A stretch of 64,000 nt of DNA from Alicyclobacillus sp. (GTDB taxonomy: Bacteria > Bacillota > Bacilli > Alicyclobacillales > Alicyclobacillaceae), in the NCBI GenBank assembly GCA_023511725.1, contig JAIMAY010000002.1, positions 62,001 through 126,000 on the forward strand. The letters run 5' to 3'. Below are positions 1,721 through 45,283 of the stretch, one piece after another. The translations under genes and the position numbers were made by a program. The notes beneath the pieces were generated by a model. The model made no database searches. It worked only from the letters and a program-made list of their open reading frames with translations, and was not told where the DNA came from. Each line of letters opens with the position of its first letter. Position 1 is the first letter of the stretch.

Positions 1721-1757
1721 GGCCGCCTGGGTCAACGTCTGCGATGCCCAGGCGGCC
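1721..1757. other. Inverted repeat between dabA and folD
   Basis: Perfect 11-bp arms GGCCGCCTGGG and CCCAGGCGGCC are separated by 15 nt. The site lies 137 bp past the dabA stop and 65 bp before the folD start. On the minus strand, the direction of both genes, no T-tract follows, so it is not a standard intrinsic terminator. It could be a folD leader hairpin. The rest of the 237-bp gap shows nothing recognisable. Confidence 0.35.
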
Positions 1758-1893
1758 GGCAATTTTCCTTACGACCGCACTCCCCTGTGGTGCTCCACTT
1801 TGTCCGCCAGTCATGCGGTCGCTATCCGATTGTGTCCAGAAAGCAGGATAACACCCGTGCTTCCCAGCGTCAAGGGGATCCCTTGCCAACACG

Positions 1894-7342: not shown

Positions 7343-8188
7343 TCATTTGCCGCGTCGCGTCAACTGGGCAATCTGGTCCCACATCTCTGGCGTCAGCCGC
7401 CGGAGGTCGCTGAACTCTCCGGCGCCCTGCAACCACTCACCACCGTCGATGGTCACGACCTCACCGTTGATGTACGCGGCGTAATCCGAGATCAGGTAGG
7501 CCGCCAGATTCGCCAGTTCCTCTTTTTCCCCGACCCGGCCAAGCGGGATCCGTTCCACCATATGGTTCGACAGTTCCGGTGTCGGCGCCAGGCGCGACCA
7601 AGCCCCCTCCGTCGGGAAAGGACCCGGAGCAATGGCGACTTGGCGAATGCCGTACCGCCCCCACTCGACAGCAAGAGAGCGGGTCAGCGCCAACACGCCA
7701 GCCTTGCTCACCGCCGAGGGCACGACATACGCGGAGCCCGTCCAGGCGTAGGTGGTCACGATGTTGAGCATCGTACCCTTCTGCCCGGCTGCAATCCAGC
7801 GCTTGCCGAGTTCCAGCGTGCAGTACACGGTGCCATGGAGCACGATGCCCATGACGGCGTCGAATGCTCGGTGGGACAGGCGCTCCGTGGGGCTGATGAA
7901 ATTCCCCGCAGCGTTGTTGACCAGCACGTCAATCCGTCCAAAGTGGCCCATGGTGGCATCCATCAATTGCCGGACCGCCTCAGGATCCCTCACATCGCAG
8001 GGATGCCAGAACACCTCGCCGATTTCGCTCATCTCCGCCGCCGCCTGCTCCAGCACCTCCGCGCGGCGGCCGCAGATGGCAAGCCTTGCGCCGAGTTCCA
8101 GGAATCGCTCCCCCATCGCTCGGCCGAGGCCCGTGCCTCCGCCCGTGATGAGCACCACCTTGTCCTTGAGCAACCCGGGTTGAAACAC
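7343..8188 (-). CDS. fadH: 2,4-dienoyl-CoA reductase, SDR (DECR) type
   Basis: A 281-residue short-chain dehydrogenase matching the DECR branch that reduces 2,4-dienoyl-CoA with NADPH in unsaturated fatty acid beta-oxidation. The nucleotide loop is TGGGTGLG near residue 15. VNNAAGNF and the family C-terminus GEFSDLRRLTPEMWD are present. The classical YxxxK is replaced by the DECR arrangement: Tyr in TTYAW lies exactly 15 residues, and Ser in PSAVSK exactly 4, before the catalytic Lys. This matches Tyr199/Ser210/Lys214 of human DECR1. The start is GTG with AAAGGGGAG upstream. It is called fadH as in B. subtilis; E. coli fadH is an unrelated flavoprotein. Confidence 0.9.
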   Translation of the reverse strand: MFQPGLLKDKVVLITGGGTGLGRAMGERFLELGARLAICGRRAEVLEQAAAEMSEIGEVFWHPCDVRDPEAVRQLMDATMGHFGRIDVLVNNAAGNFISPTERLSHRAFDAVMGIVLHGTVYCTLELGKRWIAAGQKGTMLNIVTTYAWTGSAYVVPSAVSKAGVLALTRSLAVEWGRYGIRQVAIAPGPFPTEGAWSRLAPTPELSNHMVERIPLGRVGEKEELANLAAYLISDYAAYINGEVVTIDGGEWLQGAGEFSDLRRLTPEMWDQIAQLTRRGK

Positions 8189-8226: not shown

Positions 8227-8242
8227 TTCGGATGTGTCCGAA
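8227..8242. promoter_or_regulatory. Palindromic operator candidate upstream of fadH
   Basis: TTCGGA-4 nt-TCCGAA is a perfect 6-4-6 palindrome centred about 46 bp before the fadH start codon. Its size and position suit a dimeric repressor such as a TetR- or GntR-type fatty-acid regulator. The regulator is not in this window. Confidence 0.4.
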
Positions 8243-8248
8243 TCGAAA

Positions 8249-8274
8249 GAAGGCAGGCTTCCTCGCCTGCCTTC
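8249..8274 (-). terminator. Hairpin between repeat array and fadH
   Basis: A perfect 10-bp stem GAAGGCAGGC/GCCTGCCTTC with a 6-nt loop. On the minus strand it is followed by TTTCGATTC, a weak T-tract. It may terminate transcription coming through the repeat array from the lipoprotein gene before the fadH promoter. Confidence 0.45.
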
Positions 8275-8345
8275 AGCTTACCGTGTTGGACGGGTTTTGG
8301 AAAGCCGGCCCGCGCCTCCGCGCGAAAGGAGCCCCAGCAGGGCGC

Positions 8346-8790
8346 ATAAGCCGGTTTTTCCGCCTAATGCAGCGCGATAGCGGCCCCTTGCGAGGCGGAT
8401 AAGCCGGTTTTTCCGCCTTATGCAGCGCGATCGCGGCTCCGGCGGCGCGGATAAGCCGGTTTTTCCGCCTTATGCAGCGCGATCGCGGCTCCGGCAGGGC
8501 GGATAAGCCGGTTTTTCCGCCTTATGCACCGCGATCGCGGCTCCGGCGGCGCGGATAAGCCGGTTTTTCAGCCTTATGCAGCGCGATCGCGGCTCTGGCG
8601 GCGCGGATAAGCCGGTTTTTCTGCCTTATGTGGCGCGATCGCGGCCCCGGCGAGGCGAATAAGCCGGTTTTCCCGCCTTATTGTGGCGGCCAGGCGGCCT
8701 CGGCGAAGCGAATAGGCGGGTTTTTCCGCCTTATGCGGTGCGATCGCGGCTCCGGCGGCGCGGATAAGCTGGTTTTTCCGCCTTATGCAG
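8346..8790. repeat. Tandem array of nine 52-bp palindromic units
   Basis: Nine units start at 8346, 8399, 8451, 8503, 8555, 8607, 8659, 8712 and 8764, a period of 52 (twice 53). Each begins with a hairpin: ATAAGCCGG, loop TTTTT, CCGCCTTAT (one C-C mismatch). A conserved 29-nt linker follows, usually GCAGCGCGATCGCGGC then TCCGGCGGCGCGG. Most linkers contain the 8-bp palindrome GCGATCGC. Units 3-6 are nearly identical; the outer ones (1, 7, 8) diverge, as expected for an array grown by unit duplication. The period is not a multiple of three and no gene-like frame spans it. Function is unknown. The remainder of 8189-8823 holds only the fadH upstream elements listed separately. Confidence 0.93.
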
Positions 8791-8823
8791 CTGATTGGAG
8801 ATACGAGCCAAGCCACAGATCCT

Positions 8824-9402
8824 TCAAAGGTTCGTGCCGTTCTGCGTGGCGTCCGTACCAGGTCCTCCCCCGTTCCAAGTCCCGTTGTTGCCCCATGGAT
8901 GCCCCGTGAAATTCCCCGTCCAATTGCCTGTTTGATTACCGCCCCAGTGTCCGCGACCCGCCGGCGGGGCGGGTAGCCCTTTCCGCGACAGCAGGGTGGG
9001 GAGCATCTGCTTGAATCGAGACAGCATCTGCTGCCCCTGATCCGATGTGATGCGCCCGCTCTGCACCATCTGGTTGATCCTGGACTGCTCGTCAGCCACC
9101 AGCGCGTTCTCCAGCGTCTGTTCGGATACACCCTGCTTTTTCGCAACGTCCAGGATGGATTCACCGCTCTGCAGGTCCTGCTGCAGCGTGCTGACTGAAA
9201 TCTTCAGCACGTTCGCCACGGTCTGGAGGTTGACGCCGCCGAACATTCCTCTTCCGGCAAAGCGAGCGGCGCCCGCCGCCGCATTGCTGCCAGCCGCGGG
9301 TGTGGTACCGCCGGAAGCGCTGGAGACCGCACCGCAACCCGCCAACACAGCGGCGACTCCGAGCGCAGCCCACAGGCCGCATAAGCGCGTGGCACGACGC
9401 AT
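8824..9402 (-). CDS. Predicted lipoprotein with Gly/Asn/Trp-rich tail
   Basis: A 192-residue exported lipoprotein of unknown function. A signal peptide ends in the lipobox LAGC (Cys23), followed by a Ser/Ala/Gly-rich linker. The middle (about residues 57-135) contains NVLKISVSTLQQDLQSGESI and later DVAKKQGVSEQTLENALV. This helical pattern recurs in secreted Gram-positive proteins whose L-G-I-S-x-x-x-L repeats resemble small helix-turn modules. The tail (about 148-192) is rich in Gly, Asn, Trp and Thr and looks disordered. The ATG is preceded by AAGGGGGG. It is probably anchored on the outer face of the membrane; no enzymatic motif is seen. Confidence 0.75.
   Translation of the reverse strand: MRRATRLCGLWAALGVAAVLAGCGAVSSASGGTTPAAGSNAAAGAARFAGRGMFGGVNLQTVANVLKISVSTLQQDLQSGESILDVAKKQGVSEQTLENALVADEQSRINQMVQSGRITSDQGQQMLSRFKQMLPTLLSRKGLPAPPAGRGHWGGNQTGNWTGNFTGHPWGNNGTWNGGGPGTDATQNGTNL

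Positions 9403-43964: not shown

Positions 43965-45283
<1,319 letters not shown>

Follow-up and report, generated by a model that had tools for sequence, protein, structure and literature searches.

Mycobacterial MIRU loci are minisatellites of the VNTR type, in which units of about 50 bp are repeated in tandem at many intergenic loci. In cyanobacteria, the abundance of the palindrome GCGATCGC (HIP1) goes with methyltransferases for GATC and CGATCG, and restriction enzymes have been linked to its depletion in one of the strains (PMC4390886). Dispersed palindromes as such are common among genomes. The array analysed here belongs to a family whose tandem units vary in copy number from locus to locus, as in a VNTR, and six of its own nine units contain GCGATCGC. 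No account of these arrays, or of their dyad words, was found in the open literature that was searched.

Structure and surroundings of the array

The window, i.e., the whole 64-kb stretch of DNA that was analysed, holds a tandem array at positions 8342 to 8791 with a period of 52, 8.6 copies and an 87% match (TRF). It contains nine dyads of 23 bp, with start-to-start steps of 52 bp except for two of 53 bp; none is expected by chance (100 shuffles). The nine-unit array of period 52 reported in the initial annotation is thereby confirmed. The features of the region are listed below, where the plus strand of the array is the one that carries the T loop.

7343 to 8188, minus strand: SDR gene, PF13561/PF00106 (adh_short_C2)
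8249 to 8274, minus strand: terminator-like hairpin whose tail contains T, located between the array and the SDR gene
8342 to 8791, plus strand: 52-bp tandem array, nine units (TRF, dyad scan)
8346 to 8368, plus strand: unit 1 dyad, 23 bp, outer and diverged, with GCGATAGC in its linker
8399 to 8421, plus strand: unit 2 dyad, ATAAGCCGGTTTTTCCGCCTTAT
8427 to 8434, no strand: GCGATCGC of unit 2, centred 20.5 bp (about two turns) from the dyad centre
8451 to 8473, plus strand: unit 3 dyad, with GCGATCGC at 8479 to 8486
8503 to 8525, plus strand: unit 4 dyad, with GCGATCGC at 8531 to 8538
8555 to 8577, plus strand: unit 5 dyad, with GCGATCGC at 8583 to 8590
8607 to 8629, plus strand: unit 6 dyad, with GCGATCGC at 8635 to 8642
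8659 to 8681, plus strand: unit 7 dyad, whose linker has lost the palindrome
8712 to 8734, plus strand: unit 8 dyad, with GCGATCGC at 8740 to 8747
8764 to 8786, plus strand: unit 9 dyad, the last, with its linker broken off
8824 to 9402, minus strand: gene of a 192-aa putative lipoprotein with a lipobox, no Pfam match

The palindrome GCGATCGC is exact in six of the nine units, in agreement with the claim that most units carry it, and all six copies present in the window fall inside the array. The inner units are near-identical and the outer ones diverged, as had also been described. That the array is non-coding holds insofar as a simple codon model called no gene there, although mechanical open reading frames do cross it. 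No Rfam family matched the array; elsewhere in the window, a T-box leader (45003 to 45241, minus strand) and a ZMP/ZTP riboswitch (1739 to 1824, minus strand) lie above the Rfam gathering score.

Regarding the neighbours, the lipoprotein gene named in the initial annotation corresponds to a putative lipoprotein with a lipobox, and the identification of the SDR gene as fadH is plausible but not proven. If the terminator-like hairpin at 8249 to 8274 ends the lipoprotein transcript, the array would lie within the 3' UTR of that transcript. Within the array itself no terminator-like site was called, and the T run of each unit lies in the hairpin loop rather than as a tract after the hairpin.

Dispersal in the source genome

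The unit was found by BLAST at 146 places in its own genome (G000; 2,660,096 bases in 76 contigs). About 25 intergenic arrays of at least three units are present, comprising about 170 units and 10.6 kb in total, where 25 is the number of entries in contigs, several of them at contig ends and contig C29 counted on both strands, such that the true number is perhaps slightly lower. Given their shared units, the starts of contigs C35 and C71 resemble two halves of one array. A subfamily with another linker occupies contigs C29, C75, C11, C5 and C50. These other arrays of the same genome exclude a local slippage product, which had been considered as the refuting outcome.

None of the arrays overlaps a called gene (codon model). 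Taken relative to the genes on either side, array placement is ++ in five cases, -- in five, +- in five and -+ in four; since the orientation of array and flanking gene is random, no transcript-level orientation is kept. The number of units per array ranges from 3 to 15. Identity between units drops with their distance within arrays, from 0.815 for neighbours to 0.717 at lag 9, which fits local duplication, and linker identity is 0.71 within arrays and 0.59 between arrays. The earlier suggestion that the array expands and contracts fits both this decay and the range of unit numbers.

The search of the genome and its relatives that had been proposed thus yielded many arrays in the genome and none in the sampled relatives: BLAST found the unit in none of 60 relatives, and a pattern search found the dyad in none of 80, both samples being composed of genomes from outside the genus. 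One relative (G007; L243, 2760 to 12904) carries many direct repeats of GTTGATAGCCTGCCTTAGAGGGATCGAAAC, about 66 bp apart and with differing spacers, which resemble a CRISPR array. The window array was unmatched in plasmid and phage collections. Among viral contigs, two patterns gave one match each, and on reading neither proved to be such an array.

The flanking genes of the window array were covered by a Pfam scan, and the genes beside other arrays were listed by sequence or compared via BLAST. When the open frames beside arrays were compared across genomes by BLAST, no family recurred in most of them; the sole exception is one syntenic pair of sister species. Genes near arrays may nonetheless share a function.

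Spacing and conservation of the dyads

When 84,980 species genomes were scanned by pattern, most of what remained were lone hairpins. Paenibacillus cymbidii and Cohnella nanjingensis, however, carry tandem ATAAG-N13-CTTAT dyads with a period of 50-51 and differing linkers. A class-wide pattern search, with the loci fetched, further revealed four dyads in symmetric arrangement, at steps of 51-62-51, in five genomes (G063, G001, G192, G202 and G343), which represent three families, G063 and G001 being one. Fourteen such quartets (±1) were found in these genomes. The identity of quartet linkers between genomes is 0.425, versus 0.395 when shuffled. In the other genomes, distances between dyads are mostly 51±1, 62±1, 102 and 113 bp, and dyad spacing presents a vector strength of 0.89 at 10.25-10.3 bp (n = 164; the pairs are not independent, as copies are of shared descent). 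Dyads thus recur at whole helical turns across linkers that are near random between genomes, which is the pattern expected of a platform.

The distribution is patchy. The strict pattern matched in 18 of 399 sampled Bacilli, with about half of these being single matches at the control rate, and a phylum-wide pattern search outside the source genome returned scattered spacings, with at most two per genome.

Several other repeats were observed in these genomes. G063 has 63-bp tandem arrays (six turns) at L152:4196-4688 and L150:7-301, built on a related dyad with a T loop, ATAGCGG..TTTT..CCCTTAT, and several units of the L152 array contain GCGATCGC. Short tandem repeats often flank the phased elements of G063 (L148-L153) and G343 (L160-L161); those of L151 are (GGGTAGC)n, while others have units of 8-11 bp. 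In P. cymbidii, a separate 34-bp tandem array of 14.6 copies (L121:3951-4448) lies about 50 bp before a 50-bp dyad array.

In the source genome, most dyad columns hold 1.2-1.9 bits, whereas for most linker columns the value is 0.3-1.4 bits, the dyad figures being inflated by the fact that units were found by their dyads. The outer ATAAG/CTTAT of the dyads is almost invariant, and in 61 of 172 units the centre of GCGATCGC lies 20.5 bp away from that of the dyad. At a site where two species of one genus (G343 and G169) share an orthologous element, 1 of 92 dyad positions changed, versus 10 of 94 linker positions and one gap.

That the spacing, and not the linker, is conserved from one genus to another points to a specific assembly of protein and DNA, for which the literature consulted gave no match. 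With the 51-62-51 quartet, the family has a clear signature by which any genome can be screened.

Avoidance of CGATCG outside the arrays

Word counts were obtained for 463 kb outside arrays, consisting of loci L198-L217 of the source genome and the window outside 8230-8900. Under an order-2 model, CGATCG occurs 8 times in this sample versus 365 expected, and GCGATCGC 0 times versus 44 expected; no other 6-bp palindrome of sizeable expectation is as depleted as CGATCG. Genome-wide, CGATCG occurs 176 times, 65 of them in the 10.6 kb of arrays, and GCGATCGC occurs 86 times, 65 of them in array zones, for which a wider masking was used. Scaling the expectation from sample to genome gives about 2,090 CGATCG and about 250 GCGATCGC, and hence a depletion outside arrays of roughly 19-fold for the former and 10- to 12-fold for the latter.

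That both words are purged elsewhere and retained in the arrays is the most surprising point of this analysis. The avoidance suggests restriction pressure directed at CGATCG. Given that sampled members of the same family avoid CGATCG too (about 3-fold in G032; 2 versus 41 expected in G005; 5 versus 32 in G003), avoidance does not simply track the arrays. As for the likeness to HIP1 noted in the initial annotation, the word is indeed identical, yet the analogy reverses. With GCGATCGC retained in the arrays of a genome that otherwise purges CGATCG, restriction avoidance and function can be tested against each other.

Interpretation of the arrays

About 25 dispersed copies, together with whole-turn palindrome clusters in distant relatives too, indicate that the array is probably a docking platform for a DNA-binding protein. 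In its specific form, namely a DNA-level, multi-site platform for a putative dimeric DNA-binding protein, we hold this reading with about even confidence. It fits the conserved dyads, the variable linkers, the whole-turn spacing and the indifference to gene orientation. One dimer would bind each 23-bp dyad, with half-sites of ATAAG plus four bases around a 5-bp centre, and the fixed step of 52 bp, equal to five turns, would place all dimers on the same face of the helix. In relatives, the assembly would take a compact form of four dyads 51-62-51 bp apart (five, six and five turns) or that of tandem 50-51-bp arrays, and the number of units may shift via recombination or slippage. Phased binding at about five turns, one of the possibilities raised initially, gains support in this respect, given that the dyads of unrelated genomes lie 51 or 62 bp apart with near-random linkers. 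Dispersal, phasing, dyad conservation, intergenic placement in random orientation and the retention of GCGATCGC are observations, while the binding protein and an architectural role are what we infer; because placement ignores gene orientation, a nucleoid-organising, bridging or titrating role would fit better than control of single genes. Against this reading, no binding protein was identified, no array-adjacent gene family stood out across genomes, the distribution among sampled Bacilli is patchy, and certain stem pairs covary in genomes other than the source genome, as described below.

A broader and more speculative proposal, which we consider rather unlikely as a whole, is a chromosome-architecture system of Bacilli in which a dimer reads ATAAG-N13-CTTAT at five or six turns, in quartets or arrays, and in which the arrays of the present lineage also reserve GCGATCGC, purged elsewhere since stray copies would be recognised.

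Given that no binding protein was found, the chief rival to the platform is a selfish or neutral minisatellite: a MITE-like palindrome that some mobilising enzyme would have spread, that would then have expanded through slippage or unequal crossing-over, and that would serve no function in the host. This is a possibility that we take seriously, at less than even confidence. It would account for patchy occurrence in single species, for arrays of 3-15 units in which identity decays with lag, for intergenic placement throughout, and for several elements of G063 and G343 that adjoin short tandem repeats. It accounts less well for phasing conserved across near-random linkers and for orthologous elements that keep dyads more than linkers. 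Moreover, no target-site duplication was noticed in the flanks, which were inspected by eye only, and no Y1 transposase was found in G000, G063, G343 or P. cymbidii.

An RNA-level element, such as a tandem-hairpin terminator, a 3'-end stabiliser or an attenuator, is considerably less probable. The window array does lie between two minus-strand genes and before a terminator-like hairpin, and its palindromes are able to fold as hairpins. Nevertheless, orientation relative to genes is random, and RNA folding of two single units, on both strands, gave structures no stabler than those of dinucleotide shuffles (z of -0.2 to +0.7). Stem pair 6-18 is mostly mismatched: C-C is its commonest state, in 78 of 164 distinct units of the source genome. 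This pair does not covary there (53 paired versus 64 expected under independence), as is expected of half-sites and not of a structural stem. Further, GCGATCGC, as the second palindrome, lacks a loop, and the array has no Rfam match. Of the hairpin initially assigned to each unit, the dyad stands, while most units have a C-C mismatch at this pair of the stem and the two folded units showed no distinctive RNA fold; the proposed mRNA structure is disfavoured on these grounds. In G063, and likewise in pooled Paenibacillus/Cohnella dyads, covariation is present at some stem pairs. In the pool this is in part a difference between species, and a cruciform or hairpin role would likewise yield stem covariation in both sets.

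The proposed membership of a BIME/REP-like family holds loosely, in the sense of many-copy, dispersed intergenic palindromes. That a RAYT (Y1) transposase mobilised the family is, however, highly improbable: Y1_Tnp (PF01797) had no match in the whole genome of G000 or in G063, G343 and P. cymbidii, with control genomes positive, and the units are strictly head-to-tail and of a single length. Finally, a CRISPR array of 23-nt repeats and 29-nt spacers has lengths close to CRISPR values but a negligible probability, as the "spacers" are themselves repeats, none of them unique, and about 25 such arrays occur in one genome.

Relation to described repeat systems

The stem-loop sequence families of bacterial genomes, among them Bcr1 of Bacillus anthracis, share with the arrays the form of repeated palindromic intergenic families (PMC2267715). 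The part of that source consulted describes neither phased arrays in tandem nor a quartet spaced 51-62-51, the comparison being one of descriptions only. HIP1 of cyanobacteria is the identical 8-bp palindrome, likewise in many copies; it is over-represented across cyanobacterial genomes (PMC4390886), whereas here it is depleted in the genome and retained in arrays.

REP/BIME elements with RAYT are, like these arrays, clustered palindromic intergenic repeats that are dispersed in the genome. They differ in that here there is no Y1 transposase and a fixed 52-bp head-to-tail period, and in that relatives of the present family carry the compact symmetric 51-62-51 form. MIRU-type VNTRs resemble the arrays in having tandem units of about 50 bp at many intergenic loci. 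In contrast with them, nearly every unit here has a conserved 23-bp dyad, and this dyad and its helical spacing recur in other families whose linkers differ.
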